Shown here: positions 1,738 to 25,208 of the stretch, in pieces
Layout: each line of letters opens with the position of its first letter
Numbering within the stretch: position 1 is the stretch's first letter
The notes under the pieces: model-generated
What the model was told of the DNA's origin: nothing
Databases searched by the model: none
Seen by the model: the letters and a program-made list of their open reading frames with translations, nothing else
Position numbers and translations under genes: made by a program
NCBI RefSeq assembly: GCF_016734905.1
Contig: NZ_JAERPO010000004.1
Coordinates: 1-64,000, forward strand
Origin: Sphingopyxis jiangsuensis
GTDB taxonomy: Bacteria > Pseudomonadota > Alphaproteobacteria > Sphingomonadales > Sphingomonadaceae
Reading direction: 5' to 3'
DNA length: 64,000 nt

Positions 1738-1785
1738 CCAGAAGCCAAGAGAGAGTCTCGCGGCGGCCCGCCATGGAGAAATGGC

Positions 1786-3894: not shown

Positions 3895-3933
3895 TCCCGC
3901 GCCGCGCTAGGCGGCTACCTGTATTCTCAACCT

Positions 3934-3968: not shown

Positions 3969-4043
3969 CCGGAGAAGTGAAAATGAACAGCTTTCAACAT
4001 CAGGCCGCGCATGGTCGCCGGCCCATCGCGCGGGGAGGTCGTC

Positions 4044-5019: not shown

Positions 5020-5044
5020 TCGGCGCCGCTTCCCTCGTACCATC

Positions 5045-5082
5045 CCGAAAGCCCGGCCCTTGCGCCGGGCTTTCGGTCTTTT
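5045..5082 (+). terminator. 13-bp stem-loop, second copy
   Basis: CCGAAAGCCCGGC pairs with GCCGGGCTTTCGG around a 6-base loop, followed by TCTTTT. Stem sequence and loop size match the hairpin at 3934-3963, so the two are copies of one element. It separates the two overlapping small genes from the next one. Confidence 0.7.
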
Positions 5083-5107
5083 CGGCTCCCGCGAAATGGA
5101 GGTTCCC

Positions 5108-5752: not shown

Positions 5753-5791
5753 GAGCCAGAGAGGGGCCGGGAAGGGGGAACGGCCCGGGTC

Positions 5792-5834
5792 CGAGAGAGA
5801 GCGGCGGGCGGTTCGTCCCTTTCCCTCTCTCTCG
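5792..5834 (+). promoter_or_regulatory. Leader hairpin abutting the helicase ribosome site
   Basis: CGAGAGAGAG (5792-5801) and CTCTCTCTCG (5825-5834) form a perfect 10-bp stem with a 23-base loop. The last stem base is the first base of the GAGG ribosome site of the gene starting at 5846. Such a structure could modulate translation. This is inferred from sequence complementarity only. Confidence 0.45.
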
Positions 5835-5845
5835 AGGATCTACCG

Positions 5846-10201: not shown

Positions 10202-10212
10202 AGGAGCCCCGC

Positions 10213-11247
10213 ATGACCAGCACAGCCGCCGATATCGCACGCCGCCTCGCAGACAATGCCGAGGCGGTGTGCCGCCGCTATCTCTCCAACGGCCGCCGCG
10301 AAGGCCATTATTGGATGGTCGGTGACATAAGGAATAGTCCCGGCCGCAGCCTCTATGTCCGTTTGTCGGCGCGCGGTGAAGGCGGCGGGGCGGCGGGAAA
10401 GTGGACCGATGCCGCGAGCGGCGATCATGGCGATCTCCTCGACGTCATCGCCGCAAGCTGCGGACATACGGGCTTCCGCGAGACGCTCGACGAGGCGCGG
10501 CATTTCCTCAGCCTGCCGATGCCGGATCCGTCGCCCCCTGGACCGAAAGCGAAGAAGGCCGCGCAGGGATCGCCCGAGGCGGCGCGCCGCCTATGGGCGG
10601 GGTCGAGGCCGATGGCTGGCACGCTGGTTCGCTTCTATCTAAATGCTCGCAAGATCATCGACCTCAGGGCCGGGGATCCGCTCCGCTTTCATCCGCATTG
10701 CTTCTATCGACCTTCCGGGGAGGACGAGCCGGGCGGCCCGCCAGCATGGCCCGCCATGATCGCCGCGGTCACGAGTGAGGATGGCCGCGTCACCGGCGTT
10801 CATCGCACCTGGCTCGATCCGGCAACAGTGGACAAGGCCCCCGTCACCTGTCCCCGCCGCGCCATGGGACTGCTGCTTGGTCACGGTGTGCGTTTCGGGT
10901 CCGCCGCGCCGGTCATGGCCGCAGGAGAAGGGATCGAGACTTTGCTGTCGATCCGCGAGCCGATGCCGGCGATGTCGATGATCGCCGCACTATCGGCAGC
11001 GCACCTCGCGGCGATCGAATTTCCGCGTGCGCTGCGCCGCCTATATGTCGCCCGTGACGACGATGGCGCCGGTGCCGGCGCCCTCGCGACGCTGACCGAC
11101 CGCGGCGACGCCGCCGGCATCGAGGTCGTGCCGCTCGAGCCGGAGCGCGGCGACTTCAACGCCGATCTCGTCCTTCTCGGCCGCGACCGCCTTGCGCGGT
11201 CGCTGTCGCGTCAGCTTCATCCATCGGACCGTCATCGCTTTCTCTGA
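10213..11247 (+). CDS. Toprim-domain protein (primase-like)
   Basis: 344 residues with an AAGGAG ribosome site just before the ATG. The N-terminal part has a DNA-primase-like region (KWTDAASGDHGDLLDVI), and the C-terminal part a Toprim fold with the conserved Glu in AAGEGIETLLS and the DxD-type LYVARDDDGAG. This is the virulence-associated E/primase-like Toprim form found in mobile elements. It probably primes or assists element DNA synthesis, working with the upstream helicase. No zinc-binding cluster of canonical DnaG is evident, so full primase activity is uncertain. Confidence 0.88.
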   Translation: MTSTAADIARRLADNAEAVCRRYLSNGRREGHYWMVGDIRNSPGRSLYVRLSARGEGGGAAGKWTDAASGDHGDLLDVIAASCGHTGFRETLDEARHFLSLPMPDPSPPGPKAKKAAQGSPEAARRLWAGSRPMAGTLVRFYLNARKIIDLRAGDPLRFHPHCFYRPSGEDEPGGPPAWPAMIAAVTSEDGRVTGVHRTWLDPATVDKAPVTCPRRAMGLLLGHGVRFGSAAPVMAAGEGIETLLSIREPMPAMSMIAALSAAHLAAIEFPRALRRLYVARDDDGAGAGALATLTDRGDAAGIEVVPLEPERGDFNADLVLLGRDRLARSLSRQLHPSDRHRFL

Positions 11248-11383
11248 CGGCCGCTAGTCGGCCGGAAAGGGAGAGCAGGTGGCGGGAGCGGGAACGGCCT
11301 TGGTGTTCCGGTAATGCCGCGCTCCGGCCTTCGCAGAGGGCGACTGCGGCAGACGGACCGGCATCGCAATGGCGGCGTTCGCT

Positions 11384-11435
11384 GCAATTTTCCGCCGGGG
11401 CCTTTGGGCCCCTTTGCATCGCGAAGCAAAATTGC
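11384..11435 (+). promoter_or_regulatory. Nested stem-loop in the 314-base leader of the DUF2493 gene
   Basis: The gap 11,248-11,561 has no gene. It holds GCAATTTT (11,384-11,391) paired with AAAATTGC (11,428-11,435), enclosing a perfect inner hairpin GGGGCC/GGCCCC (11,397-11,412). A second GC-rich hairpin (CCCCGCC...GGCGGGG) follows. The arrangement resembles the leader of the DUF736 gene near 26,030, suggesting a structured 5' untranslated RNA shared by element genes. Confidence 0.45.
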
Positions 11436-11561
11436 CGCGCGCTCGCCATCCTCCGCTGCGCTTCGGCCCCGCCCTCTGGGGCGGGGTGCGGTCCCGTGCC
11501 GCCTGCCGCTGCCTGTCGCCGCGAAGGCCGCGCGGAGCGCGGCACATTCAGGAGACCTTCC

Positions 11562-12497
11562 ATGACCGATGCCAGCGATCATCGCGACACGAGCACCGCC
11601 GAACCCGGCTCGACGGCCTATCTCCTCCAGGAGATGCAGCTCTTCGGCTACCGGCCCTATGAGGATGAACCCGACCCGCGACCGCTTCCCGATGCGCAGC
11701 TTGCAGGCGGTGCGATCGCCGACATGTTCGACGGACTCGCTGGGTGTCTCGTCGAGACGCGGATCGAGCCCGACCTCGAGGATCTGCTCTGGAACCTCGT
11801 CAATCTCTTCCACCGCGCCGGCGAGCGCATCGAACGCGGGCTCGACGACAATGAGCAGCTGCAGCGCCGACTACAGCGCGAGCAGGATGGCAGCGAAATC
11901 CGCTCGGTCGAGCTCGAGAAGGCGACGCGCGAGGGCATTTCGCTCATCGAGCGTCGCGACGTCATGGAGTTTTTCCGTGAAGCGTCCGCGGAACAGTTCC
12001 GGCTGCTGCTCCGCAAGGCCTGGGCTCCACGAACGGGATCGCGCGTCCGGCACCAGACGCTGACCGCATCGCTGATCGACAGCCGCGACTTCCTCGACGA
12101 GAAACTTCGAAAGCGCGCAGCGGCTCTCCTTCCCGAGGGCACCCGCATCGCTTTCACCGGCGGCAGCGATGTCGGCGAGCATCGGGCGATCTGGGATGTT
12201 CTCGATCGGACCCGTGAACGGCATCCTGACATGATCCTCCTTCACGGCGCGACGCCGACGGGCGCTGAGCGGGCCGCTGCCTGCTGGGCCGAGGCGCGCG
12301 GCGTCGCACAGGTCGCCTTCCGGCCTGACTGGAACCGACATGGCAAGGCCGCCCCGTTCAAGCGCAACGATCGCCTTCTCGAAGCGCTGCCGGTCGGCCT
12401 GATCGTCTTTCCGGGAACCGGAATTCAGGACAATCTCGCCGACAAGGCGAACAAAATGGGGATTCCGCTCTGGGACTTCCGGAAGCGGGGCGGCTGA
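11562..12497 (+). CDS. DUF2493 (SLOG-like) protein
   Basis: 311 residues. The C-terminal third carries the DUF2493 fold: IAFTGGSDVGEH, then ILLHGATPTGAERAA and LIVFPGTGIQDNLA, a Rossmann-like nucleotide-binding pattern of the SLOG superfamily. The N-terminal 190 residues are helical and unrecognised. CAGGAG precedes the ATG. DUF2493 proteins are regular members of this ParB-helicase-Toprim backbone. SLOG domains are thought to sense nucleotide-derived ligands, but no ligand can be read from the sequence. Confidence 0.85.
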   Translation: MTDASDHRDTSTAEPGSTAYLLQEMQLFGYRPYEDEPDPRPLPDAQLAGGAIADMFDGLAGCLVETRIEPDLEDLLWNLVNLFHRAGERIERGLDDNEQLQRRLQREQDGSEIRSVELEKATREGISLIERRDVMEFFREASAEQFRLLLRKAWAPRTGSRVRHQTLTASLIDSRDFLDEKLRKRAAALLPEGTRIAFTGGSDVGEHRAIWDVLDRTRERHPDMILLHGATPTGAERAAACWAEARGVAQVAFRPDWNRHGKAAPFKRNDRLLEALPVGLIVFPGTGIQDNLADKANKMGIPLWDFRKRGG

Positions 12498-12542
12498 TGT
12501 GACGCTTTTGCGTCCATTTCAGGAGATTGGCTCAATCTGGTT

Positions 12543-12570
12543 CTATTTTCCGAATATATTTGAAAAATAG
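12543..12570. promoter_or_regulatory. Dyad with the ATATTCGG word upstream of luxR
   Basis: CTATTTT (12,543-12,549) and AAAATAG (12,564-12,570) are inverted repeats. Inside, CCGAATAT (12,550-12,557) is the reverse complement of ATATTCGG, which also occurs before the first lasso precursor (15,727) and before fecI (25,021). It lies about 165 bases before the luxR start, the right range for an operator or promoter element. Confidence 0.45.
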
Positions 12571-12733
12571 ACACTTGGCCCGCAGTTTCAGATTTTCCCA
12601 AGATCGCCTCGACCAGCAGCGATCAGCCGCAAGCGGCACGGCCAGCTCAGTAAGAGGGCAGGGCCTGCCGCGTTGACGAGGGGCTCGCGGACCGGACTGG
12701 TCGGAAACACCGGCCCGCGCGCCATGGGTCGCA

Positions 12734-13468
12734 ATGCCGACGATCGACGCCGCGCATGATTTCGCGCTCGACGTCTCTCGCGTGAAGAACATGGAGGGTC
12801 TTGCAGACCTGCTGCAGGAAGCCTGTTCGCGAATGGGCTGCTCCTGGTTTGCGCTCAGTCATCATATCGATTTCCTGGCGACGCCGGACCGGGGTATCCG
12901 GGTTCACAACTATCCTGAAGAGTGGGAGCATTGGTTCGACGAACAAAGGCTCGGCGCCACCGATCCCGTCCACCGCGAAAGCCAGCGCAAGATGGCCGGC
13001 TTTCTTTGGCACGACATGAAAACCGAGCGACCCGAGGATGAAATCATCCTGGCGGAGGCGCGGCGACATGGCATCGGCGATGGGCTTACCGTCCCCGCCC
13101 ACCTTCCAGGACACGCGCATGGCTCGGTGTCCTTTGCTTGGAAACCCGGCGCCTTTGCGAGCGCTGACGCGCTGCAATTCGCCCGGATGATCGGCGGACC
13201 AGCCTTCGACGCAGCGCGTCTGATAGCCTATCCAGATCTGGCGCGTGTCGGGCCGCGGCTCACGCGCCGGCAGCGCGAGGTGCTGATCTGGGCGGCAAAA
13301 GGCGAAACCGTCCGGAGGATCGGCCTCAGGCTTGGTCTCAGTCCAGACACGGTGCGCGAGCATCTGCGAAACGCCCGGCAGCGTTATGAGGCGAATGGCG
13401 GCATCACGCTCACGGTGCGGGCGCTTTACGATGGCGACATCAGCTTCGAGGACATCGCCAAGCGCTGA
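12734..13468 (+). CDS. luxR: LuxR-family quorum-sensing regulator
   Basis: 244 residues: an N-terminal autoinducer-binding domain (about 20-160) and a C-terminal LuxR helix-turn-helix (about 175-235). In the ligand domain YPEEWEHWF and GATDPVH match the conserved Tyr/Trp/Asp-Pro positions that hold acyl-homoserine lactones. The DNA-binding part reads LTRRQREVLIWAAKGET...LGLSPDTVREHL. luxI follows 91 bases downstream on the same strand. No clear ribosome site is seen before the start chosen; an internal ATG at 12,791 is the alternative. The ligand cannot be read from sequence. The position next to a lasso locus suggests it controls that cargo. Confidence 0.9.
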   Translation: MPTIDAAHDFALDVSRVKNMEGLADLLQEACSRMGCSWFALSHHIDFLATPDRGIRVHNYPEEWEHWFDEQRLGATDPVHRESQRKMAGFLWHDMKTERPEDEIILAEARRHGIGDGLTVPAHLPGHAHGSVSFAWKPGAFASADALQFARMIGGPAFDAARLIAYPDLARVGPRLTRRQREVLIWAAKGETVRRIGLRLGLSPDTVREHLRNARQRYEANGGITLTVRALYDGDISFEDIAKR

Positions 13469-13558
13469 GAAAAATCACTCGCACCCCCCTATCGTGCTAT
13501 GGCGGGAGGGCAAATAATCCTTCAATTGGAACGCCTCTTTTCAAACGGAGGCTTATCC

Positions 13559-14173
13559 ATGTTGCTTATTGTCGATTCCACCAACCGGGCGCTCGAGCAC
13601 AAGGCGATGCGCACGATGTTCGAGGCGCGCAAGCGCGTCTTCATCGATCTGCTGAAATGGGACCTGCCGGCACTCGCCGGACGGTTCGAACTCGACCAGT
13701 TCGACGATGAGGATGCGAATTATCTCATCGTCACCGATGAAGGCGGCGAGCATCTCGCGTCGGCCCGGCTTCTGCTGACGACGCGGCCGGCGCTGCTCGA
13801 CAGCCTGTTTCCGGGCCTCGTCGACGGCGAGGTGCCGCACGGCGCCGATGTCCTCGAAATCACGCGTTTCTGCCTGTCGCCCGGGATCGGTGCGCGCCAG
13901 CGGCGCATCGCGCGCGACGCGCTTCTTGTCGGGCTTGCCGAATTCGCTCTCGCGAACGGCATCCGCACCTACACCGGCGTCGCCGAACTCGCCTGGTTCC
14001 GCCAGATCCAGACCTTCGGCTGGGATTGCCGCGCGCTCGGCGAGCCCGTCCTTCACGCCAGCCAGGCGCTCGTTGCGCTTCGCATCGATATCGACGGATC
14101 GACCGTCGATAAGCTCGCGGGTGCAGGCATCGTCAGCAATGCCGCCGCGGCCCCCGCTGCGTTCGCTGCTTGA
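13559..14173 (+). CDS. luxI: Acyl-homoserine-lactone synthase
   Basis: 204 residues. All landmark LuxI residues are visible: R24, F28 and W34 in the N-terminal helix region, D46 and D49/50, R70, F84, and E100/R103 in EITRF. The enzyme makes an acyl-homoserine lactone from S-adenosylmethionine and an acyl carrier. ACGGAGG is well placed before the ATG. The C-terminal Ala-rich tail is of unknown use. The pair with luxR gives a complete circuit. The 91-base gap before it contains C-rich and G-rich runs and a CTATCG/CTATGG repeat that might hold the LuxR site, but no convincing lux-box dyad. Confidence 0.92.
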   Translation: MLLIVDSTNRALEHKAMRTMFEARKRVFIDLLKWDLPALAGRFELDQFDDEDANYLIVTDEGGEHLASARLLLTTRPALLDSLFPGLVDGEVPHGADVLEITRFCLSPGIGARQRRIARDALLVGLAEFALANGIRTYTGVAELAWFRQIQTFGWDCRALGEPVLHASQALVALRIDIDGSTVDKLAGAGIVSNAAAAPAAFAA

Positions 14174-14183
14174 GGAGGGCGTC

Positions 14184-15107
14184 ATGATCATCAATCAGGC
14201 TTCTCTCGATGCGGCGCTTCCACGGTCAGCCGCCAGCCACGAAATGATGGCGCAGGGCTATACGATCCTGCGTCGTGCGGCCCCGGCGGAGCTTATCGCC
14301 GCCATCTCGGAGGATCTCGGCCCGCGTTTCGAAGCCACGCCCTTCTGCGAGGGCGGTTTCTACGGCGCACGCACCAAACGCTTCGGCCGACTGCTCATCC
14401 GGTCGCCGCTGATGGCGGACCTCGTCATGAACCCGGCGATCCTCGGTCTCGCCGAACGGGCGCTGGGCAATTGGTGCGACCGCATCCAGCTCAACCTCGC
14501 GCAGGCGATCGAGCTCCACCCTGGCGCGCTTGCGCAGCTACCCCACCGCGACCAGGATCTCTGGCAGGGCGCGCTTGGCGAGGTCGAATATCTGATCAAC
14601 GTCATGTGGCCTCTGACGCGCTTCACCGAGGAGAATGGGGCGACGATCATCTGGCCGCACAGCCATGGCGTCGAAGCGCTCGTCGAACAGCCCAGGGAAG
14701 CGCCGATCGTCGCCGAGGCCCAGCCCGGCGACGCCATCGTCTTTCTCGGTTCGACGCTTCACGGTGCCGGCGAGAACCGAAGCGCCAGTGTCCGGCGCGG
14801 GATCATCGTCAGCTACTGCCTCGGCTGGCTCAAGCCCTACGAGAACCAGTGGCTCGCTTATCCCCCCGAGATCGCGCGGACCTTCCTGCCGGAAGTCTCC
14901 GCGCTCGCCGGGTATGCGCAGCATCGGCCCAATCTCGGTAACTTCGAAGGGCAATGTCCGTCGATACTGTTCGACGGCTATCCCGACCATCCGCTTGCGG
15001 CGGTCGATGCACTGCGCCCCGACCAGCAATTGTTGCTTGCCGACTATGTGATCGCGCAGCAGCCGGGAGGGGAGGGCCAGCGTAGGCGCGGGCCGCTCGC
15101 GGCATGA
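14184..15107 (+). CDS. Phytanoyl-CoA dioxygenase (PhyH) family oxygenase
   Basis: 307 residues, a non-haem Fe(II)/2-oxoglutarate dioxygenase. The facial triad is visible as H121-x-D123 (LPHRDQD) and H193 (STLHGAG), with an Arg at 204-205 for 2-oxoglutarate. The start has a strong GAGGAGG and sits ten bases after luxI, while its stop overlaps the gntR start, so it belongs to a luxI-phyH-gntR operon. The substrate is unknown: candidates are the acyl chain or lactone of the signal, or side chains of the lasso peptide. I recall luxI-phyH neighbours in other sphingomonads, which favours a quorum-sensing role, but cannot check this here. Confidence 0.85.
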   Translation: MIINQASLDAALPRSAASHEMMAQGYTILRRAAPAELIAAISEDLGPRFEATPFCEGGFYGARTKRFGRLLIRSPLMADLVMNPAILGLAERALGNWCDRIQLNLAQAIELHPGALAQLPHRDQDLWQGALGEVEYLINVMWPLTRFTEENGATIIWPHSHGVEALVEQPREAPIVAEAQPGDAIVFLGSTLHGAGENRSASVRRGIIVSYCLGWLKPYENQWLAYPPEIARTFLPEVSALAGYAQHRPNLGNFEGQCPSILFDGYPDHPLAAVDALRPDQQLLLADYVIAQQPGGEGQRRRGPLAA

Positions 15108-15727
15108 GCCCCGGCGCCACGATGGAGCGGGTCTATCTGGATCTGAAGGCGCGTATCCTGTCGGGTGCTTATCCGCCGGGCACCCGGCTCGAGGCGGTGC
15201 AGCTCTCGCGGTCGCTCGCCGCGAGCGCTACGCCCGTCCGCGATGCGCTGTATCGTCTCTCGGGCGAGCGGATCATCGAGAGCTGGCATCAGGAGGGGTT
15301 CCGGCAGCCATTTCTCAGCGAGGCCGATCTGGTCGATCTCTATGGCTGGGCCGGCGCATTGCTCTCGATGGCCTTGAAGGGAAGGTTGCCGCGGCCCGAT
15401 TTGCCCGGCGGGCTGATCGAGCTCGCGTCGTACGACTCATATCCCGAGTCGATCGAACACCTCTTCAGAACCATCGCAATCGGCAGCCCGAATGGCGAAC
15501 TTCGCGCCGCGATCGTCAATGTTGTCGAGCGAAGCATGACAATTCGTGGGATCGAGGCTCGCGTCGATGAGTCCGCCGCCGATGCGCTGGCCGCGATGTC
15601 GGAGGATTATCGCTTCGGGCGCTGGAGCGCTTTGCGCAGCAAAATCACACGCTTCCACCGCCGGCGGGCCACCTTCGCAGGTCGTGTCGCGGCCGAGATC
15701 CGCAAGCGGTCGGAGCCGCTTCGATAA
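15104..15727 (+). CDS. GntR-family transcription regulator
   Basis: 207 residues. The first 70 form a GntR winged helix (ILSGAYPPGTRLEAVQLSRSLAASATPVRDALYRL), followed by an all-helical domain that resembles a shortened FCD ligand domain. The ATG overlaps the phyH stop (ATGA), implying coupling. The lasso precursor starts 97 bases after its stop and two inverted repeats lie in between, so this protein is a likely direct regulator of the lasso genes. The ligand is unknown. A metal-binding FCD triad is not evident. Confidence 0.85.
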   Translation: MSPGATMERVYLDLKARILSGAYPPGTRLEAVQLSRSLAASATPVRDALYRLSGERIIESWHQEGFRQPFLSEADLVDLYGWAGALLSMALKGRLPRPDLPGGLIELASYDSYPESIEHLFRTIAIGSPNGELRAAIVNVVERSMTIRGIEARVDESAADALAAMSEDYRFGRWSALRSKITRFHRRRATFAGRVAAEIRKRSEPLR

Positions 15728-15765
15728 TATTCGGAGAATATGGGTCGTATAAAATTCCTATACGA
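15727..15765. promoter_or_regulatory. Two palindromes in front of the lasso precursor genes
   Basis: ATATTC-GGA-GAATAT (15,727-15,741) and TCGTATA-N7-TATACGA (15,745-15,765) are both perfect inverted repeats, 60-98 bases before the first precursor ATG. The second has the GTAT...ATAC form expected for GntR-type operators. The first shares ATATTCGG with sites before luxR and fecI. Both are candidate operators controlling precursor transcription. Confidence 0.6.
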
Positions 15766-15824
15766 GCGGTGAGCCTTAGCTTTCGAGGTGCCGCAATTCC
15801 GCGGCATATTGGAAGGAAGCGATC

Positions 15825-15947
15825 ATGGACCGCGAAACCAATGAACTGATCGAGCTCGGCAGCGTCAGCGCCGACACCGCCGGCGACTTCGGTATCGGCA
15901 CCGAAGCCAATGGCAAGGTCAAGCTCCCCGGCCTCAGCATCGACTGA
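15825..15947 (+). CDS. Lasso peptide precursor A1 (40 aa)
   Basis: A short gene with a GGAAGGAAG ribosome site. The leader fits the lasso pattern LxxxGxxxxxTxG: Leu8, Gly12 and the key Thr18 at position -2, with the core starting at Gly20. The predicted core begins GDFGIGTE, so Gly1 can be linked to Glu8 in an 8-residue macrolactam ring, leaving a 13-residue tail ending in SID. The leader is only 19 residues and lacks the Tyr and Pro often seen at -17 and -14. It lies directly before a second precursor and the B and C enzymes. Function of the mature peptide is unknown. Confidence 0.88.
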   Translation: MDRETNELIELGSVSADTAGDFGIGTEANGKVKLPGLSID

Positions 15948-15954
15948 CCCGGGC

Positions 15955-15983
15955 GCCGGGGGCCAGCGCGCCTGGTCCCCGGC
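15955..15983 (+). terminator. Stem-loop between the two precursor genes
   Basis: GCCGGGG pairs with CCCCGGC, then after a G/T mismatch CCAG pairs with CTGG around a 5-base loop. It lacks a T-run, so it more likely protects the A1 message or attenuates read-through into A2 and the enzyme genes than fully terminates. Such hairpins after precursor genes help make more precursor than enzyme. Confidence 0.5.
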
Positions 15984-16019
15984 AGGCCGCTCTCCATGAT
16001 CCCAATCGAGGAAGTGAAG

Positions 16020-16142
16020 ATGGAACGCGAACCCAATGACCTCGTCGAGCTCGGCACCGTCACCGCGGACACCGCGGGCGACTGGGGCCCTCCGTTCGAG
16101 CCCGCCGGCCGCATGCCGCGCGCTGCGATCGAGCAGGACTGA
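16020..16142 (+). CDS. Lasso peptide precursor A2 (40 aa)
   Basis: A second precursor of exactly the same length. The leader is nearly identical to that of A1 (LVELGTVTADTAG against LIELGSVSADTAG), with Thr18 at -2. The core begins GDWGPPFE, again giving a Gly1-Glu8 ring, here with two prolines and aromatic Trp3 and Phe7, and has a 13-residue tail with two arginines (after GR and PR). Shared leaders with diverged cores indicate duplication and diversification, both products being processed by the same B and C proteins. Confidence 0.88.
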   Translation: MEREPNDLVELGTVTADTAGDWGPPFEPAGRMPRAAIEQD

Positions 16143-16194
16143 GCAGGCGTCGGGAGCGGCCTGGCGGTCGCTCCCGATCCTGCCGCTATTGTGG

Positions 16195-16848
16195 ATGGGC
16201 TGGCGACTGGCACATGGGACGGGCTATTGCGAAGCGGGCGGCGAACTCGTATTCCTCGACTTGGCTCGCGACAAATATCTCTCGCTGCGTGGCCGCGATC
16301 GCGCCGCGTTCGAGCGGCTTCGTGCCGGCGAGCCGAACGACAGCGACGCTATGACGCGGCTTGTCGCGACGGGCCTCTTTGCGCGTTGCGACGGCGGGCA
16401 TGACGTCGCGCCCACGCGCGTCTTGGTGCCGTTCCGCGACCTGGCCTCGCACCACGATGCCCCCTTTGGCGTCGGCATGGCAATTCAGGCGGCCCGCGCG
16501 CTCGGCTGGGCGAAACGCGCTATGCGATCCGCACAGATAGCGAGCACCGTCGAACGCCTACGGACAGCCAAGCGCGAACTCGCCGTTCCCGGTGACGAGG
16601 ACGCGATCGTGGCGATCGCTCGGCGCTATTCTGCTTGCCGCTGGCTCATTCCGATCGAGCCCCGGTGTCTCGTCGACGCGCTTGCGCTCGACCGGATCTT
16701 GCTCAAGCGGCGTCTCGCCGTGTCGCTCGTCTTCGGCGTGCGCCTCGATCCGTTCGCGGCGCATTGCTGGCTGCAGACCCCCGAAACCATCCTCACCGGT
16801 ACGTTGGCCGAGGCCCGGAACTACACGCCCATCCTGGTGGTCGCATGA
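16195..16848 (+). CDS. Lasso peptide B protein: leader-binding domain fused to Cys protease
   Basis: 217 residues. The first 70 resemble a PqqD-like precursor-recognition domain (GGELVFLDLARDKYLSL), which binds the leader peptide. The rest is the transglutaminase-like protease that cuts after the leader, with the probable nucleophile C158 (PRCLVDALALDRIL) and H190 (FAAHCWLQT); the third acidic residue is not obvious to me. A single fused B protein is typical for proteobacterial lasso loci. The ATG at 16,195 has no evident ribosome site, so the true start may differ slightly. Its stop overlaps the start of the cyclase gene. Confidence 0.9.
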   Translation: MGWRLAHGTGYCEAGGELVFLDLARDKYLSLRGRDRAAFERLRAGEPNDSDAMTRLVATGLFARCDGGHDVAPTRVLVPFRDLASHHDAPFGVGMAIQAARALGWAKRAMRSAQIASTVERLRTAKRELAVPGDEDAIVAIARRYSACRWLIPIEPRCLVDALALDRILLKRRLAVSLVFGVRLDPFAAHCWLQTPETILTGTLAEARNYTPILVVA

Positions 16849-18593
16849 CGCGGGGCGTGATCGCCTTCGTCAGCTGCGAGGGCAGCGCGGACCATTTCGA
16901 GGCCATCGCGGCTGTCCACGGACTTCGCCGGATCGCGTCACCTCCTGGCCTATTCCTCTTCGCGGGCCCGAAGTTGTCAGATCGCCTGATGGCGGATGGC
17001 TCGGTGCTCCTGGGCGAGGTCTTCTCGCTCTCGGGGGCGAGCTGTCACGCGCCTTCAGACGGCTGGGGCAACTATCTCGCCTTCGCGAGGCGGGAAGGTC
17101 GCTGGCTGATCGATCGTGCTCCGTTGACGGGCGCTCCGCTCTATTGGACCCGTTGGCGGGGCGGAATATTGTGCGCTTCGCACCTCGAGTTGATCGCCGA
17201 TCTGCTGGAATCGCCGACCGTAGACTGGGAGTTCATCGCCCAGGCCCTTATATACAGCAATCTTCGGACCGAGCGCACCGGCCTCACTGGCCTGTCGGAG
17301 CTTCTGCCGGGAATGCGGCTCGCGATTGACGATGCTTCGGCAAAGACGATCCCGCTCTGGTCACCATGGGAGCATGTCGGGAAGGCAATTAATGCGGGAA
17401 TAGCCGAGCTAGCTCCCGAGCTGGAGCGGCGACTGGTCGCTTCGGTGCGCGCGTGGAGCGGCACGCGCAAGGAGATCATGCTCGAGCTTTCGGGCGGGCT
17501 CGACTCGTCGATCGTCGCGGCCGCCTTGTCGGCCGCGGGTTCCGACTTCACCGCGATCAATTTTGTTACGCGCGGCGCGGATGGCGACGAGCGTCATTAT
17601 GCGCGCGCGGTAGCAAGCCGGTGCGGTATCGAACTGATCGAGAGCGAGATCGATCCGGCTGATGTCGATCTCGTTGCCCGGCCCTCGGTAATCGGGGCCA
17701 GGCCTGGAGCCTATGCCGTGCTTCGCGGCATTGACCGCGCATTCGAGCGCGGGGTCGGTGGCCGCGAGGTGTCGTTGTTCGGCGGCATCGGTGGCGACAA
17801 TATCTTCTGTTTCGACGGTTCGGTGTCGCCATTCCTCGACGCCGCTGCGACTTTCGGGATGGGACGCCGTGCCTTCCGGACGCTCCGCGACGTGGCGCGC
17901 GGTGGCGGAGCGACCCTTTGGGGTGCGGCACTGCTTGCGTGGAAGGCGTGGCGACGAGGTCCACGCGATCATTGGCGGAGCGAACCGGAATTCCTGAGCC
18001 CCGACGCCATTCCTGCTGCGCCCTTCGCACATCCGTGGGACGAGGGGGCACGAGGCCAGAGTCAGGCGAAGCGCAACCATGTCGAGGCGGTGCGGCGAAT
18101 TCTCGATTTCGTCGACCGACCGCCGCGCTGGGCGGCGCGCGACGTGGTCGCGCCGCTTCTGTCGCAGCCCGTGGTCGAATATTGCCTCTCCATTCCCAGC
18201 TGGACCTGGATCGAGGGCGGGCGGGACCGCGCGGTCGCGCGCGCCGCCTTCGCCCATCGCCTGCCGCCCGAGGTCGTCTGGCGTCGCGGCAAGGGACGGC
18301 TCGAGTCGGTCGCCACTGCCGCCTATCTTCGCCAGCGCGCCGAGCTCGCTGAACTGCTGCTCGGCGGACGCCTTGCCGAGCATGGCCTGCTCGACCTCGA
18401 CGCGATCCGGGCTTATCTCGTGCGCGATCTCGCCGACGGCGACTTTCTCTATTACCGGCTGCTCGAAATCGCCGACGTCGAACTCTGGGTGCGGTCGGTC
18501 GAGGAACTCTTCGCCTCGCGGCCGAGCTTCGACCAGCGATCATATTGCGGTGACTTGGCTGGATCGGGGTCGACCTCGTCCTTGAGCCAGTAG
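16845..18593 (+). CDS. Lasso peptide C protein: asparagine-synthetase-like macrolactam synthetase
   Basis: 582 residues. The ATP-binding PP-loop SGGLDSS at residues 216-222 activates the Glu8 side chain as an adenylate so that Gly1 can close the ring. The N-terminal 200 residues keep the shape of the glutamine amidotransferase domain, but the sequence begins MTRG, without the nucleophilic Cys2, as expected for a cyclase that needs no ammonia. A 4-base ATGA overlap couples it to the B gene. Its last 142 bases overlap the 3' end of the convergent isopeptidase gene. Confidence 0.92.
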   Translation: MTRGVIAFVSCEGSADHFEAIAAVHGLRRIASPPGLFLFAGPKLSDRLMADGSVLLGEVFSLSGASCHAPSDGWGNYLAFARREGRWLIDRAPLTGAPLYWTRWRGGILCASHLELIADLLESPTVDWEFIAQALIYSNLRTERTGLTGLSELLPGMRLAIDDASAKTIPLWSPWEHVGKAINAGIAELAPELERRLVASVRAWSGTRKEIMLELSGGLDSSIVAAALSAAGSDFTAINFVTRGADGDERHYARAVASRCGIELIESEIDPADVDLVARPSVIGARPGAYAVLRGIDRAFERGVGGREVSLFGGIGGDNIFCFDGSVSPFLDAAATFGMGRRAFRTLRDVARGGGATLWGAALLAWKAWRRGPRDHWRSEPEFLSPDAIPAAPFAHPWDEGARGQSQAKRNHVEAVRRILDFVDRPPRWAARDVVAPLLSQPVVEYCLSIPSWTWIEGGRDRAVARAAFAHRLPPEVVWRRGKGRLESVATAAYLRQRAELAELLLGGRLAEHGLLDLDAIRAYLVRDLADGDFLYYRLLEIADVELWVRSVEELFASRPSFDQRSYCGDLAGSGSTSSLSQ

Positions 18594-20431
18594 AGGAACC
18601 AGTCGAGGTTACGCTCATAGACCGCGAGCTTCTGACGAGGCTCGAACTTAATATGGGGGGCGAGCGGGTAAATGTGCAGCTCACCCATGCGGGCCGTCGC
18701 GAGCTTGCTCTGCAACTCGATGGTCTGCCTCGCCTCGCTCTCGGGCAGCTGCAGAAGAATCGGAGCCCGGATGCGCGCGATGTCGGCCGACGGGGACAGG
18801 CGGCGCCACCCGGCCGGGTCGGCGTCGGGCGACCCGAGCTTCCAGTAGCGCTGCACATTATCGACGAACATCGACCGGCTCGGCCGCTCGTTGAACCAGT
18901 AATAGCTCGGCTCGAGGCTAACCGAGGCGCTCGCGGCGGCCCTGAGCAGATTGCTGTGAGTCGCGGTCCACATCGTAACTTCGCTTCCGAAGCTTAGACC
19001 GCCCATGCCGACGCGACTAGGATCGACGATCCCTTGGCGCGCCAGATGGTCGATCGCGGCCTCCACGACCTGGCGGCCGAGCTTGTAACCTGCTTCCGCG
19101 GTCATCTCTCCCGGGAGCCGGTTGATGCAAAGCGTCGCAATTCCGCGCGCTGCCATGGCACGCAGGGGATATTCATCGCCCAACCCCCCACGCACGAAGC
19201 CGGGGCACCGGTAGTAGGTCACGAAGAGCGGCAGCCGCCCGGGGATCTTCGGGCGAATCAAAACGCCCGACGCACGGCTGCCGCTCACCTGCCATGCGAT
19301 GGTTTCGGCAAGGAGCCCGTCGCTGTCAGGAAACTGGTTGGGAGTGTCGATGATGGTCTTGGCGCCATCAAGCCCGATCCGCACGAGGCGCGGCGGCGTC
19401 GAGGGGGTGGCTTCGACGCAGAATAGAGCATCGGGCGCCGCAGCGCAGGGGGAATCCTCGTCGCGGCTTCCCGAGAGCAGACCGTCGGTCGCGGCAAGAG
19501 GCGACAATTCCGCCGTGCCGGATGACCAGATGTAAAGAGTCTCGCGGAGCGCGCGATCTCGCAAGGTGACGATCGTCCGCCCGTCGGCGAGTGGCAGAGT
19601 CGAGGCAAGGCGCCGTGATCCCTCCGCGCAGCCGAGGATTTCGAAGCACACGCCGCTCGCCTGCAGCTTGGCCTTGAGCACTGCGGTCGGTCCGGCGGAT
19701 GCGCGAGGAAGCGGCGGGGGCAGTGCCCCCGCCTCGGCGGTGGAGGCGACGCGCGCCGACCCAGTAGCCATGTCATGGACGCGGATGATGCGGGGTTGGT
19801 CGGCGAGCAGCGGCGCGCGGTCGAACCAGTCGCCGGTGAAGCGCTGCGTCGCCGCACGGCCATTGACAAGCCCGCCGCGATAAAGCGGTGCGGACAGATC
19901 GACGCGCCCATCGACGAGAATACCGGTCTCCCGCTCTGCATCTTCCGCGCGCGCGATCGCCTCGCGAGAAGGGCCTTCCGCGGCGATGACGGTGCCGTCG
20001 GCCTGGATTGCGAAGCCCTCGATATCGCCGTCGCCCACGACGATCGGGACGAAGCCCGAGCCGTCCACCTCGCTTCGCCATAGCGCGACCCGCCCGTCGA
20101 CCAGCGCGCGGACGACGATGGCGCGGCTGTCCGGGGTCCAGGTCGCTTCGCCTGGCATGACGACCCCGACTTCATAGATCAGCGCGGTGCCGAGGCGTCC
20201 GAGCCCCCGCGGCTGGCCCTTGCCGTCAGCAGGCGCGATGTACCAGTCGACATCGATCCGGTTTGTAGCAGTTGAGGGTCGCTCGATACGGTAGGCGATC
20301 CATCGCCCGTCGGGGGAGGCGGCAAGACCCGAGATGTCGGCAATCTCGGCAATTTCGCGCGGGGTCGTCTGGCCGGCTGCGGCAGGTGCCGCAGCCAGCA
20401 TGGCGAGAAGAAGCGCGGTACGGCTTACCAC
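18452..20431 (-). CDS. Lasso peptide isopeptidase (prolyl-oligopeptidase fold)
   Basis: 659 residues with an N-terminal signal peptide (cleavage near AAAGQ), so it acts in the periplasm. An N-terminal beta-propeller region is followed by an alpha/beta hydrolase domain with nucleophile S480 in GLSFGSE, probable acid in the PESE segment near 564-566 and H593 in APHIKF. This matches the family of the astexin isopeptidase AtxE2, which hydrolyses the ring isopeptide bond of its own lasso peptide. The GTG start overlaps the stop of the TonB receptor gene by 7 bases. The C-terminal 40 residues after FLYWLKDEV are polar and read through the end of the cyclase gene. Confidence 0.9.
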   Translation of the reverse strand: MVSRTALLLAMLAAAPAAAGQTTPREIAEIADISGLAASPDGRWIAYRIERPSTATNRIDVDWYIAPADGKGQPRGLGRLGTALIYEVGVVMPGEATWTPDSRAIVVRALVDGRVALWRSEVDGSGFVPIVVGDGDIEGFAIQADGTVIAAEGPSREAIARAEDAERETGILVDGRVDLSAPLYRGGLVNGRAATQRFTGDWFDRAPLLADQPRIIRVHDMATGSARVASTAEAGALPPPLPRASAGPTAVLKAKLQASGVCFEILGCAEGSRRLASTLPLADGRTIVTLRDRALRETLYIWSSGTAELSPLAATDGLLSGSRDEDSPCAAAPDALFCVEATPSTPPRLVRIGLDGAKTIIDTPNQFPDSDGLLAETIAWQVSGSRASGVLIRPKIPGRLPLFVTYYRCPGFVRGGLGDEYPLRAMAARGIATLCINRLPGEMTAEAGYKLGRQVVEAAIDHLARQGIVDPSRVGMGGLSFGSEVTMWTATHSNLLRAAASASVSLEPSYYWFNERPSRSMFVDNVQRYWKLGSPDADPAGWRRLSPSADIARIRAPILLQLPESEARQTIELQSKLATARMGELHIYPLAPHIKFEPRQKLAVYERNLDWFLYWLKDEVDPDPAKSPQYDRWSKLGREAKSSSTDRTQSSTSAISSSR

Positions 20432-23370
20432 CGGATCGTCGCCTGGATCGAGGCGGTCCGCCCATAGGGGTTGGCCTTCTCAGGATCATAGCCGAGCGCT
20501 GAAGTGCTGCTCCGCACTTCGACGAAGGGCGGATCTCGATCGAAGAGGTTCTGGACGCTGAACGCGAGGGTCAGCCCGCGACCGTCGGCCCCTCCCGTGC
20601 CGCCGATTTGCTGGGCAAGCGTCAGATCAACTGTGGTCCACGACGATACCCGGGCCGCCGGAATGACGGTCTGGTTCGTGTAGCCCTCGACATAATTGAC
20701 GAAGGCATTGGCCGAGAAGCCATCTTCCGACCATCCCGCCCGTCCGCGCAGCCGCCATTTGGCGGGGCTGGCGTAGAGCCCCACGACGTCGATGCTCGGC
20801 GCGCCCACGGTGAGCTGCCGCTTGATCGAGAAAATATGGGTTCCCGCGATCCCGAGATCGAGCATTCCGCTGCCGACTCGCGGAGCATAGCCGAGATCGA
20901 AATCGATCCCGCGCTGCCGTTCGGCTGACAGATTGCGCGTTCGTCCGTCGAGGATCGCGGCAATGTCGCCGGGCGCGAAGCCGAACGGATTGAAAAACAG
21001 CGGCGAGTTGAAATAGCCCTGCACGAGGTCGGGCGATGGGTTCTCGGTGACGACGCCCGCAAAGGCTTCGCGGTCGACAAGGAAGCGGAGATAGTCCTCG
21101 CTCGCGCTGCCGATCCGGTCGCGATAGTCGACATCATAATAGGTGAGCGATGCCTTCAGCCCCGGGACCGACGGCGGGGCGATGTCGAAGCCGGCGGTCC
21201 AGGTCTTTGCCCTCTCGGGCTGCACGTTCGGAGCATAGCCGAAAAGGCCGATGACATTAGCCACGCCCGAGGTTGTCGTCGGGTCGGGCACCTGCAACGT
21301 CGTATAGAAGGCGACCGTCTCGCCGATCAGCTCGGAGAAGAGCGGTGCGCGGAACGATGTGCCGTAGGATGCGCGCAGCGCAATGCCGTCCACCGGTTCC
21401 CACCGCACTCCGAGCTTGGGATTCTCGGTGCGCCCGAACTGGTTATAATCCTCGATCCGGCCCGCCAGCGTGAGATCGAGCTTCTGGAAGCCGGGAACGG
21501 CATTGTCGGCGCCGAAGATCGGCACCAGCAGCTCCGCATACACCGATTTGACGTGCCGGGGACCGGGCAGGCCGAAGAAGGGCGAGGCATCGGGCGTCAG
21601 GAAGCTGGCGTCGTTGATCGTGAAATAATCATAGGCCTCGCGTCGATATTCGGCGCCGACGGCAACGCGAACCTCGCCGCCAGGAAGACGCAACAGCGGG
21701 CCATCGGCGCGCAGCGCGGCCGACCAATTATCGAACGTGTCGATCGTCGCATAGCTGCCGCGAATGCTTTCGATCGACGCGGGATTATTGGCGCTGCCGT
21801 CGCCGAACACATTGAACGCTGTCGCGGGATTGGTGTCGGCGAGCGCCGCGCGAAGACGCGCGCTGTTCACGACATTGTCGAAGCTCGCGCGGCTCTTCTG
21901 GCGGCCATAATTGCCTCCGAGCTGGATGCGCCAGGCCCCGATTTCCTGCTCGAGCGCTGCCGACGCCGAAACCGCCCAGACACGGCCCCTGTTGATCTGC
22001 GGCCCAAGCTCGTTTGTGAAGCTATAGGCGACGGCAACGGGTTCGTTCGTCCCGATCGGATCGACGTAGAAGGGATTGGTCACCGGCACGGTGGCAGTGC
22101 GGAGGAAGTCGGTCTTGCCGATCTGCCGGTATCGGCGCTCCGCTGCGAGAATGTTGGTCCGCAGCGTCAGCGTGCCCGTGATGTCGACCGCGCCGCTGGC
22201 GTAGAGGCTATGGACGCGCTGACGGGGCAGGAGGTCGGCTTCGAGCCGGTTGTCGCGCCGGTTCTGGACGCCGGGGAGAAGGTCGGCCGCGGTAAGCGCG
22301 GTCCCGTTCTGGCCAGCCGGGATTCCGAAAATCTGTCCGTTCGCGGCCGTGATCGTCCCGGGGGCTGCAAAGAGTGACCGGTAATCCCCGCCACCGAAGG
22401 GGCGGAGGTCCTCGCGGGCATAGTCTCGCTTCGCGGCCGCGAGCGCGCCGCGTTCGGAATATTGATAGGCAATCATGAAATGACCGCCGTCCCAACCCTT
22501 GCCGAAGAGCTGGCTGAACTGGAGATCGGTCATGTCGCCGTCCGACGTGCCCGCCCGAAACAGCGTTTCGGCGCCCTCGAAGCGGTTGCGGAGCCGTAGG
22601 TTGACGACCCCGGCGACGGCATCGGCGCCATAGATGGCCGAGGCGCCGTCGGTGAGAACCTCGATCCGCTCGACCGCAGTGACTGGAATAAGCGAGATGT
22701 CTGCAAAGGCTCCGCCAAGTCCGCCGAGCGCCGGCCGGGTTCCGTCGATGAGAACGAGCGTCGACGAGGTTCCGAGGCCGCGCAGGTTGATGCCGCTACC
22801 GTAGGTCGCATCGGCGCCTGCGCCATTGCGCGTCGTCGCGCCGAGCGTCGTTTCGGTGACGCCGCCGCCGAATGCCTGCGGAAGCGACTGGAGCATCTGC
22901 TGAACCGTGCCGTAGCCGCTCTTCTCAATAGCTTTGCGATCGATGCTTATGACCGGAGACCCCACGGGCCCTGCACCGCGGATGCGAGAACCGGTGACTA
23001 CGATCGCATCGCGGCCGCTCGTTTCAGTCGATCCAGCCTCCGCGGCAACGTCGTTTCCCTCGCGGATGACAAGCGCGCCATCGACGAGTTCCGCTACGAG
23101 GCCGGTGCCGGAAAGGAGGCGCGACAGTGCGGCGTCGTCGCTATACCGGCCTTGGACGCGCGCGCTGCGCTTCCCCTGTACGATCGACGACGACGCGATC
23201 ACCTCGCGGCCGGACACCTGCGAATAGCGCTGCAATGCCGTGCCGAGATCCTGGGCAGCGATATCGTAGCTTTGCTGTACGGACTGGACCTGCGCATGTG
23301 CCGTGGGAACCTGAATCGCGATTGACGCGGTGCTCGCCGAGAGCATCGCCCCCAGAAACTTGTACTTCAT
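20425..23370 (-). CDS. TonB-dependent receptor with STN signalling domain
   Basis: 981 residues, outer membrane. After a signal peptide (ending near TAHAQ) comes an STN domain (YDIAAQDLGTALQRYSQVSG), which marks transducers that signal to FecR-type anti-sigma factors. Then follow a TonB box-like DAIVVTGSRI, a plug domain and a long barrel ending in an aromatic residue (TIRW). The ATG at 23,370 is preceded by GGGAGGT. It is coupled to the isopeptidase gene, so it most likely imports the lasso peptides from this locus, or related ones, and reports their presence to FecR/FecI. Confidence 0.92.
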   Translation of the reverse strand: MKYKFLGAMLSASTASIAIQVPTAHAQVQSVQQSYDIAAQDLGTALQRYSQVSGREVIASSSIVQGKRSARVQGRYSDDAALSRLLSGTGLVAELVDGALVIREGNDVAAEAGSTETSGRDAIVVTGSRIRGAGPVGSPVISIDRKAIEKSGYGTVQQMLQSLPQAFGGGVTETTLGATTRNGAGADATYGSGINLRGLGTSSTLVLIDGTRPALGGLGGAFADISLIPVTAVERIEVLTDGASAIYGADAVAGVVNLRLRNRFEGAETLFRAGTSDGDMTDLQFSQLFGKGWDGGHFMIAYQYSERGALAAAKRDYAREDLRPFGGGDYRSLFAAPGTITAANGQIFGIPAGQNGTALTAADLLPGVQNRRDNRLEADLLPRQRVHSLYASGAVDITGTLTLRTNILAAERRYRQIGKTDFLRTATVPVTNPFYVDPIGTNEPVAVAYSFTNELGPQINRGRVWAVSASAALEQEIGAWRIQLGGNYGRQKSRASFDNVVNSARLRAALADTNPATAFNVFGDGSANNPASIESIRGSYATIDTFDNWSAALRADGPLLRLPGGEVRVAVGAEYRREAYDYFTINDASFLTPDASPFFGLPGPRHVKSVYAELLVPIFGADNAVPGFQKLDLTLAGRIEDYNQFGRTENPKLGVRWEPVDGIALRASYGTSFRAPLFSELIGETVAFYTTLQVPDPTTTSGVANVIGLFGYAPNVQPERAKTWTAGFDIAPPSVPGLKASLTYYDVDYRDRIGSASEDYLRFLVDREAFAGVVTENPSPDLVQGYFNSPLFFNPFGFAPGDIAAILDGRTRNLSAERQRGIDFDLGYAPRVGSGMLDLGIAGTHIFSIKRQLTVGAPSIDVVGLYASPAKWRLRGRAGWSEDGFSANAFVNYVEGYTNQTVIPAARVSSWTTVDLTLAQQIGGTGGADGRGLTLAFSVQNLFDRDPPFVEVRSSTSALGYDPEKANPYGRTASIQATIRW

Positions 23371-23450
23371 CTTACCTCCCCAAGCGGCCTCCGATGGCCG
23401 TCTGGGGGTGCAAAACACCGGAAAGGGGATTCCCCCTTTTGCGATTGGGA

Positions 23451-24389
23451 TTATTTTTTGCTGAGGGTGATTGCGTCCGGACCTTCTTCGTCATCCAGCC
23501 CAAAAGCTGCGGCGAGCTTGCGAGCGAGGCTCGCGCTGTCGGCGACATCGAAGCGGCCCGTTACGGGGAGCGATCCCAGCGCAGGGTCTGCGAGGCGGAT
23601 CGGTTTGGCATTGGCCTTGTTGGCGGCATCGATGACGGCGCCGAGCGGGAGCGCGTCGGCCGCCAGCATCGTCGTCGGCTCACTCGTTTGCACGGGGCTT
23701 GCCATGGCCGGGAGGAGGCGAGGGCCGTCGTCCGACACTTCGGCTGTCTCTCCCGGCGCGAGGCGGAGCGCTTTGCTCGAACCGCCAAGCCGGACCTCGA
23801 CCGAACCGCGCACGAGCTTGACGGTGGGGACGCTCGATCTGGCGTCCACCTCGAAGATGGTCCCGAGCGCCTTTGTCTCCGAGACACCCGCGACGACAAT
23901 GAATGGCCTTGCACTATCGTGGGCGACATCGAACCGCGCGCGGCCGCCGTGCAGGCGGATACGCCGCTCGGTGTCGGAGAATTGCGGTTCCGCCCAGGCA
24001 CCATCCATTAGTGTCACGGTCGAGCCGTCGGCGAGGCGGAGCTGGCCGGGCAGCATGGGGCCTTCTGCAATCTGCGGCGTGTCGGCCTGTCGTCCCATTT
24101 GCCAGGTGAAAGCCACCGCTATGCCGATTGCGGCGATCGTCGCGACGGCCCAGCGGAAGCCCCCTGGTGCATTGCACTCTTTGTGCGCCCCGGCTTCGCT
24201 TCGCGCCATGGCTTCGATGCGGGTTCGAGAGGCGGCGCCTGACACCGCGAAATCATCCTCTGCCACGGCAAAGGCCTCGGCGTTGCCGGGCACCGCACAC
24301 CAGAGTTTGAAGGCTTCGCGGTCGGCTTCGGTCGGCGCACCGCGTAGCCGCACGGCCCATTCGGCCGCCTCGCGTTCGACAGATCTCAC
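23451..24389 (-). CDS. fecR: FecR-type anti-sigma factor
   Basis: 312 residues, GTG start overlapping the fecI stop by 4 bases. The N-terminal part has the cytoplasmic Trp-containing region that binds the sigma factor (EREAAEWAVRLRG and FKLWCAVPGN), one membrane segment near residues 80-95 (WAVATIAAIGIAVAF), and a periplasmic FecR domain (LADGSTVTLMDGAWAE through the GRARFDV region). It ends with a small STN-like part. It should relay the signal from the receptor STN domain to the sigma factor. Confidence 0.9.
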   Translation of the reverse strand: MRSVEREAAEWAVRLRGAPTEADREAFKLWCAVPGNAEAFAVAEDDFAVSGAASRTRIEAMARSEAGAHKECNAPGGFRWAVATIAAIGIAVAFTWQMGRQADTPQIAEGPMLPGQLRLADGSTVTLMDGAWAEPQFSDTERRIRLHGGRARFDVAHDSARPFIVVAGVSETKALGTIFEVDARSSVPTVKLVRGSVEVRLGGSSKALRLAPGETAEVSDDGPRLLPAMASPVQTSEPTTMLAADALPLGAVIDAANKANAKPIRLADPALGSLPVTGRFDVADSASLARKLAAAFGLDDEEGPDAITLSKK

Positions 24390-24967
24390 GAGTGCGTGTC
24401 TCGCGCCTTGCGGACAGCGATCAGGGCTTTGACGATATGTCTTTCCACGGCCTTCACATCCATCCCTTTGAGTCGTCCGATCTCTGGATAGCTGACATCG
24501 TCGAACCTGTGCATCAGGAATACATCCCGTGTGGTTGGATCTAGTTTCGCGATCGCATCCTCTACCCGGCGCAGCATGTCGCGATGCTCGAGCGTCGCAT
24601 GCGGGTCGGGCCCGGCGACTTCATGATCCTCGAAACTGTGATGGGCTTGGAGCTGGCCTCTTACCCCGGACCGCTTCCGGTTCTTCAGGATCGTGCGCGC
24701 TGCCGCGGCGAGATAGGCTCCGGGCGCATCGAGAAAGGCTGCGTGCACACCTTTCGCGGAGAAGAGCCGGCGAAACGTCTCCTGCACGAGGTCGCCGACA
24801 TCCTGCGGGTGAACATTGCGGCGAAAGATGCCCGCGATGCGCGCCTGGTGCGCGACATAGAGCGCTTCTTCGCGATCCGCACGGCCATATTCCGCCCAAT
24901 CGCCGGGAGGCAGGGGATCGCCTGCGGCGACGGCGCGCCGATCAGCCGGGTCATCGTCATAGTCCAT
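24386..24967 (-). CDS. fecI: FecI-type ECF sigma factor
   Basis: 193 residues with sigma region 2 (QDVGDLVQETFRRLF) and region 4 (LDPTTRDVFLMHRFDDVSYPEIGRLKGMDVKAVERH). The start at 24,967 is preferred because an upstream in-frame extension would run through the regulatory dyad. First gene of the fecI-fecR-tonB-isopeptidase operon, which it probably activates when the receptor is occupied. Confidence 0.9.
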   Translation of the reverse strand: MDYDDDPADRRAVAAGDPLPPGDWAEYGRADREEALYVAHQARIAGIFRRNVHPQDVGDLVQETFRRLFSAKGVHAAFLDAPGAYLAAAARTILKNRKRSGVRGQLQAHHSFEDHEVAGPDPHATLEHRDMLRRVEDAIAKLDPTTRDVFLMHRFDDVSYPEIGRLKGMDVKAVERHIVKALIAVRKARDTHS

Positions 24968-25020
24968 TCCACATCGCCTACCGGTCGGACCGAGGGGCAA
25001 TGAAGCCGGGAGGTAAGAAC

Positions 25021-25034
25021 ATATTCGGAAATAT
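25021..25034. promoter_or_regulatory. Palindrome with ATATTCGG upstream of fecI
   Basis: ATATT-CGGA-AATAT is a perfect inverted repeat 54 bases before the fecI start. It shares ATATTCGG with the palindrome before the lasso precursors and the dyad before luxR. It may be the operator that co-ordinates the two halves of the lasso locus. Confidence 0.5.
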
Positions 25035-25208
25035 GCGCCGCCGCCTTTAGCCCGAGGGCCTGGACATACGCGTCGGCCACCCGGCAACGGATGGGAATAT
25101 CACAAGGCTTTCCGAACGGAATTCTTACGTTCCGGCATCGCGCGCCTGCCAGCCCGATGCCCTCCAAGCATAGCCGGACGTAACGTCAGGGCAAGCCTGT
25201 GGTGCGAA

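Follow-up and report, generated by a model that had tools for sequence, protein, structure and literature searches.

Lasso peptide clusters that carry an isopeptidase follow a recurrent plan, in which a GntR-like gene is nearly constant before the precursor, a TonB receptor with sigma and anti-sigma factors is nearly constant behind the isopeptidase, and an exporter is mostly missing; in the same 2022 review, the function of isopeptidase-type lasso peptides was called enigmatic (PMC9266682). Published work on sphingomonads, bacteria of soil and water, has also described a synteny of luxR, luxI and phyH (PMC3704786, PMC5012321, PMC4288048), including novR-novI3-phyH-gntR in Novosphingobium subterraneum, where gntR lies behind phyH. 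The word 'lasso' occurs zero times in the texts of these three papers, and our literature search, which covered sources other than subscription papers and bioRxiv, found no work joining lasso peptides and luxI in sphingomonads. Here, we analyze a 64,000-nucleotide stretch of DNA (the window), taken from contig 4 of a 3.13 Mb Sphingopyxis genome, in which these two kinds of locus are joined. Gene content, conserved linkage across genomes, a lux box at luxI, a unique dyad at the precursor promoter and the exchange of a cassette of lasso genes together tip the balance, though not far, toward reading the locus as one regulatory and biosynthetic unit, in which a lactone circuit would gate an isopeptidase-type lasso system of exchangeable specificity.

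The lux-lasso junction and its conservation

Four plus-strand genes make up the lux module: luxR (12734-13468), encoding a LuxR-type regulator with autoinducer-binding and helix-turn-helix domains (Pfam Autoind_bind 4e-25 and GerE) that is predicted to bind acyl-homoserine lactone; luxI (13559-14173), an acyl-homoserine-lactone synthase (Pfam Autoind_synth 1e-22); phyH (14184-15107), an Fe(II)/2-oxoglutarate oxygenase (Pfam PhyH 7e-21) that starts 10 bp after luxI; and gntR (15104-15727), an FCD/VanR-like GntR regulator (Pfam GntR 2e-13) with a 4-bp overlap with phyH. Next on the same strand are two lasso precursors, A1 (15825-15947; NCBIfam benenodin profile NF033522, 38.3 bits against a cut-off of 33) and A2 (16020-16142; 27.9 bits, under that cut-off), followed by the leader peptidase B with its B2 transglutaminase-like domain (16195-16848; NF033537 73 bits, above cut-off; Pfam Transglut_core3) and the asparagine-synthetase-like macrolactam cyclase C (16845-18593; Pfam Asn_synthase 6e-28). 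These genes converge on a minus-strand series that consists of an AtxE2-family lasso isopeptidase (18452-20431; NF033523 500 bits, cut-off 400; PDB AtxE2 5txc, 1e-36), a TonB-dependent receptor with an N-terminal STN signalling domain (20425-23370; Pfam TonB barrel, Plug and STN, the last at 1.3e-9), the anti-sigma regulator fecR (23451-24389; Pfam FecR 1.5e-14, DUF4880) and the extracytoplasmic function (ECF) sigma factor fecI (24386-24967; Pfam Sigma70_r4_2 6e-13; start read from the sequence).

The Pfam and NCBIfam profiles thus recovered, each in its place, every gene named in an earlier note made from this DNA, and, as that note had also said, no ABC transporter matched among the scanned flanking genes of the window, which is expected for an isopeptidase-type cluster. 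Its description of a run without a break into the precursors does not hold, since a separate promoter region with a lux box precedes luxI, and gntR is set apart from A1 by 97 bp that contain a conserved operator of their own. The note had also called the adjoining LuxR/LuxI circuit with PhyH and GntR genes unusual; GntR is near-constant in isopeptidase clusters (PMC9266682) and the luxRI-phyH synteny is published, which leaves the link to lasso genes as the part not found in searchable literature.

The window luxI is the sole LuxI found in the genome, and its product retains the Arg, Phe, Trp, Arg, Glu and Arg positions that are 95-100% conserved in the family alignment. The window luxR is likewise the sole LuxR of its type found, with one usually invariant Tyr replaced by Phe (by eye). 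PhyH retains its HxD...H motif, which is 100% conserved in an alignment of 56 sequences with 60% mean column identity, and its profile is closest to the small-molecule oxygenases AndA, PrhA and SptF. We disfavor a role for PhyH as a lasso-peptide modifier, because many loci that lack lasso genes also have phyH behind luxI, and because phyH is strongly conserved while the peptide cores vary freely; it likelier acts on the lactone side. The AlphaFold model of GntR (pLDDT 92) is matched by Foldseek to VanR, PmiR, McbR and TM0439. One further locus (L176; L numbers denote individual loci throughout) has lost phyH between luxI and gntR, carries luxR inverted and lacks a lux box; the loss of phyH is a natural deletion that could reveal whether the gene is required.

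To place this junction in its family, we searched 299 Sphingomonadaceae genomes for luxI (PF00765) and lasso isopeptidases (NF033523, curated cut-off). LuxI genes lay within 10 kb in 23 of the 49 isopeptidase loci above cut-off, with further ones within 15 kb, against a chance expectation of about 0.3 loci of 49 (a hand estimate based on genome sizes). In the 80 Sphingopyxis genomes, the isopeptidases split into two score classes: among those below 612 bits, luxI lay within 15 kb in 56 of 59 loci, all convergent, while among those of at least 612 bits it did so in 3 of 28 (Fisher p = 2e-15, which is overstated as the 612-bit split was chosen after viewing the data, with the contrast itself being plain). 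Gene order was read by profile searches in about 160 loci, and most luxI-linked ones, from many genera and amid different flanks, exhibited luxR-luxI-phyH-gntR-A-B-C facing isopeptidase-tonB-fecR-fecI. Such a comparison had been proposed in the earlier note as a possible refutation, should luxRI and lasso genes never travel together; they do so in dozens of genomes. A second arrangement, in which luxR-luxI-phyH-gntR is divergent from fecI-tonB-isopeptidase and fecR is missing, was found in L015-L018, L021, L027, L028 and L030.

The lasso-linked LuxI proteins were strongly clustered on the LuxI tree, with 10 changes for the canonical group compared with 35 in shuffles. Outside the family, a class-level search returned the isopeptidase in only one other genome, and therefore no outside control for the luxI linkage is possible. 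Together, these comparisons give solid sequence support for a conserved lux-lasso junction, with cell-density signal genes as a fixed part of the sphingomonad lasso cluster. In L089 and L094, luxR-luxI-phyH-gntR continues into fecI-fecR-tonB and a gene resembling those of S9 peptidases; the retrieved sequence contains neither lasso B nor lasso C, and a different peptide may come under the same control there. L054 holds the entire lux-lasso cluster in many frameshifted pieces, a decaying copy.

Regulatory DNA of luxI and of the lasso operon

An expectation-maximization (EM) search of 97 non-redundant luxI upstream regions yielded a lux-box dyad that resembles CTATCCCCAGATCTGGGGATAG and lies at about -75 relative to luxI (log-likelihood 396 vs. 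100-110 for shuffled sequence). The window copy, GCACCCCCCTATCGTGCTATGG (13481-13502, plus strand), lies 78 bp upstream of the luxI start and is the top match in the 64 kb window at 14.3 bits. No lux box of at least 13 bits was found in any gntR-to-A interval, and direct activation of the lasso operon by LuxR is rejected for the window locus because its A promoter has no such box.

The gntR-to-A intervals share a different motif, CCGTATAAAxTTCggATA, positioned at -79 to -85 relative to the A start (log-likelihood 195 vs. 63-75 for shuffled sequence), which was built from 16 luxI-linked A promoters and is present in all 16, one of them weak. In the window, this candidate GntR box is CGTATAAAATTCCTATACG in the A1 promoter (15743-15765, plus strand; 31 bits, with the next best match in the window at 11 bits), a perfect six-base dyad CGTATA-N7-TATACG that, with as many as three mismatches allowed, has no other match in the 3.13 Mb genome. 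Clusters that lack a local gntR (L005, L031 and, in weaker form, L037/L038) also retain the box before A; their genomes carry luxR-luxI-phyH-gntR 20-60 kb off or on another contig (L110, L118, L106). L006 retains it too, in a genome whose gntR belongs to another lasso cluster. On the simplest reading of these sequences, GntR owns the dyad, and luxI-phyH-gntR would form a regulatory module. FecI was considered as an alternative owner and disfavored, as the dyad is absent before fecI or tonB and differs where gntR lacks luxI. The dyad probably overlies the -35 region, with either sign of control possible. The earlier note had envisaged a density-gated peptide; direct gating falls away with the missing lux boxes at A promoters, and the regulatory DNA fits an indirect relay through the luxI-phyH-gntR operon.

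Several observations weigh against this relay or limit its reach. L004 has no box, though its genome has a lux module (L088), and four Sphingopyxis loci (L143/L171, L170, L172, L165) carry a drifted box or none. Of two strains that share the window's gene order, S. bauzanensis DSM 22271 (L143) has a drifted dyad and Sphingopyxis sp. H050 (L142) an intact one. Ownership of the dyad can only be assigned provisionally, because it is strongly asymmetric in some loci and because clusters with gntR but without luxI have a different, weaker dyad. Nor is the wiring universal, as the second arrangement has no box at A and carries a second lux box before fecI. On the output side, neither FecI targets nor a FecI promoter motif were identified. 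Finally, GntR proteins are often repressors, and if this one represses, the lactone would turn the peptide off.

The operator also bears on whether the two modules are linked in function at all. They could be chance neighbors that share a mobile block on a genomic island, as might be suspected from the tRNA-Gln, integrase, ParB and helicase genes upstream and from the luxI-phyH pairs found without lasso genes; but the same order recurs in many genera and amid varied neighbors, almost every locus of one isopeptidase class is linked, and the operator is retained even where the modules lie apart, so that we regard this explanation as very improbable.

The lasso peptides, their exchange and the proposed circuit

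The predicted core of A1 is GDFGIGTEANGKVKLPGLSID, with a ring from G1 to E8 and a boundary placed by the T-x-G motif, and that of A2 is GDWGPPFEPAGRMPRAAIEQD, also with a G1-E8 ring. The core of L164 is nearly identical to the latter, and A2, though under the NF033522 cut-off, is retained in the relatives L164, L175, L171 and L047. In its other features the cluster corresponds to the benenodin family of isopeptidase clusters, with a precursor beside B and C and an Atxe2-family isopeptidase, and to their architecture, with GntR before the precursor, the TonB receptor, sigma and anti-sigma genes behind the isopeptidase and no ABC exporter. The STN domain on the receptor, with adjoining FecR and FecI, corresponds to signalling of the FecI/FecR/FecA type.

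Linkage and regulatory sites are solid at the level of sequence, and on the favored reading events would unfold as follows. LuxR with lactone would bind the lux box and drive luxI-phyH-gntR, and GntR, as activator or repressor, would act at the A-promoter dyad to set A1-A2-B-C transcription. The peptide would exit the cell and re-enter through the STN-type TonB receptor, which would signal through FecR to FecI, and the isopeptidase would open the peptide; re-import, cutting and feedback through FecI are suggested by homology. Between kin, the peptide may then serve as a signal.

Comparison with related loci revealed that the two halves of the locus have diverged to very different extents. Relative to L157, the window is 92% identical in LuxR, 99% in LuxI and 88% in PhyH (LuxR is also 92% identical to the L163 copy), vs. 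38% in B, 36% in C and 37% in the isopeptidase. DNA similarity to L157, at 87%, covers 10390 to 15833 and ends nine bases inside A1; against L163, it returns near position 22285, which falls within the receptor gene, where the N-terminal STN part is conserved. A genome scan with the C protein, which returned three loci, placed its closest relatives in Sphingopyxis sp. H050 and S. bauzanensis DSM 22271, at 60-61%. Across Sphingopyxis, the distances of B, C, isopeptidase and receptor intercorrelate at 0.68-0.87, while those of C and isopeptidase hardly correlate with luxR, luxI and phyH (0.11-0.26).

We then compared cassette types between trees. Types were assigned from C and isopeptidase identity, so that the single change on the C plus isopeptidase tree, where type I is one clade, is expected, and the informative tree is that of luxR, luxI and phyH, on which well-supported branches require at least four changes of type (the typing of L174, with two isopeptidases and a split C, is unsure). 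These sequence comparisons indicate that a segment comprising A, B, C, the isopeptidase and the receptor barrel has been swapped on at least four occasions, with the lux module and the fecI/STN genes remaining conserved, and they support regarding it as a specificity cassette.

One tentative interpretation of the exchange is a two-tier system, in which a lactone common to many strains would open the GntR-relayed gate and the lasso peptide, matched to a receptor barrel and an inactivating isopeptidase of its own, would be a pheromone particular to the strain, with specificity cassettes exchanged between genomes. The same change of receptor barrel together with maturation genes would suit density-controlled scavenging, where the lasso peptide is a siderophore-like carrier whose cargo enters through the TonB receptor and is freed by the isopeptidase; quorum sensing would limit a costly shared good, and cassette exchange would reflect privacy between carrier and receptor, by analogy with pyoverdine types. 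The STN-TonB, FecR and FecI set resembles siderophore uptake signalling, as PMC9266682 notes, and a transposon insertion in lasso B leaves Sphingomonas BPH unable to use phenanthrene (PMC11006600), although the latter is one insertion in one strain, no cargo is known and the predicted cores appear to have no obvious metal ligand set; we consider scavenging possible but doubtful. Swapping of producer and immunity-like genes as a cassette might also be expected from interference competition, with the peptide as a narrow-spectrum toxin at high density and the isopeptidase as the producer's immunity enzyme, and quorum control is common for antimicrobials. We judge this improbable, as isopeptidase-type lasso peptides except astexin-1 are reported without antimicrobial activity (PMC9266682) and an uptake receptor, which a toxin producer would not need, is kept beside the peptide gene.

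RNA leader, flanks and comparison with known systems

While footprinting fecI, we found a structured RNA element of 88 bases (25000-25087, minus strand; model R1, 87.4 bits), a predicted three-way junction. It precedes the fecI-fecR-tonB-isopeptidase genes and falls within the interval that separates the neighboring upstream gene from the fecI start (24967); a longer fecI frame, reaching 25087, would span it. In an alignment of 42 sequences, 96.2% of cells were paired and 17 of 26 pairs exhibited compensatory two-sided change, with a covariation score of 0.38 vs. 0.17 after shuffling and less than 0.10 for slid controls, and with invariant AUGUCCA and AAAG loops. A search of Rfam 15 with the fecI leader returned no family at E values as high as 10. 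Of 77 lasso loci, 54 carry the element, usually ahead of fecI and in some cases ahead of A, and none of the 84 luxI loci lacking lasso genes has it. The element is not lasso-specific, being present in 126 of the 299 family genomes, where copies also precede unrelated accessory genes; they lie close upstream of genes for a subtilase, a GIY-YIG protein and an HSDR_N protein, and also near a GGDEF protein. The loci with the element comprise lasso loci within L002-L176 and, further, L177-L206. By sequence, it looks like a cis-regulatory leader. Tandem elements, two copies about 200 bases apart, were observed in L160 (18490-18835) and L166 (984-1323).

Upstream of the lux module, positions 48-12497 of the window hold a tRNA-Gln and, after it, genes for an integrase, a ParB-like protein, a strawberry-notch helicase, Toprim and YAcAr, which gives the lux-lasso locus the appearance of lying on a genomic island. 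Portions of this flank recur in other Sphingopyxis loci (L157, L159, L162-L164, L173). Beyond fecI, a single protein at 26770-27699 combines a polymerase-beta nucleotidyltransferase with a HEPN domain and may be related to MNT-HEPN toxin-antitoxin pairs.

If the favored reading is true, it would explain why so many sphingomonad luxI genes adjoin phyH and gntR. The lactone link, the single genomic operator and the swappable peptide-receptor cassette offer concrete handles on peptide function, through which the unknown job of lasso peptides becomes testable as a signalling system.

The locus shares with the astexin-2/3, benenodin-1, sphingopyxin, subterisin and sphingocin clusters a GntR-A-B-C series facing isopeptidase, TonB receptor and FecR/FecI, with no ABC exporter; beyond what the searchable literature describes for isopeptidase-type clusters, it has luxR-luxI-phyH attached to gntR, together with a luxI lux box and a dyad in the A promoter. 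With the sphingomonad luxR-luxI-phyH loci, compared here through their published texts alone, it shares the same order, in one case including gntR. Its STN receptor domain with FecR and FecI neighbors is that of FecI/FecR/FecA signalling, from which it would differ in that the proposed ligand is the cell's own lasso peptide.

Agr and ComQXPA are Gram-positive systems with polymorphic peptide signals. Unlike them, the window system is Gram-negative and has a lasso peptide, a TonB receptor and a lactone circuit on top, with signalling by the peptide as a proposal. By analogy with these systems, the peptide gene, processing genes and receptor part change together while the output genes stay, and, if the two-tier interpretation is true, this would amount to pheromone types in Gram-negative bacteria.

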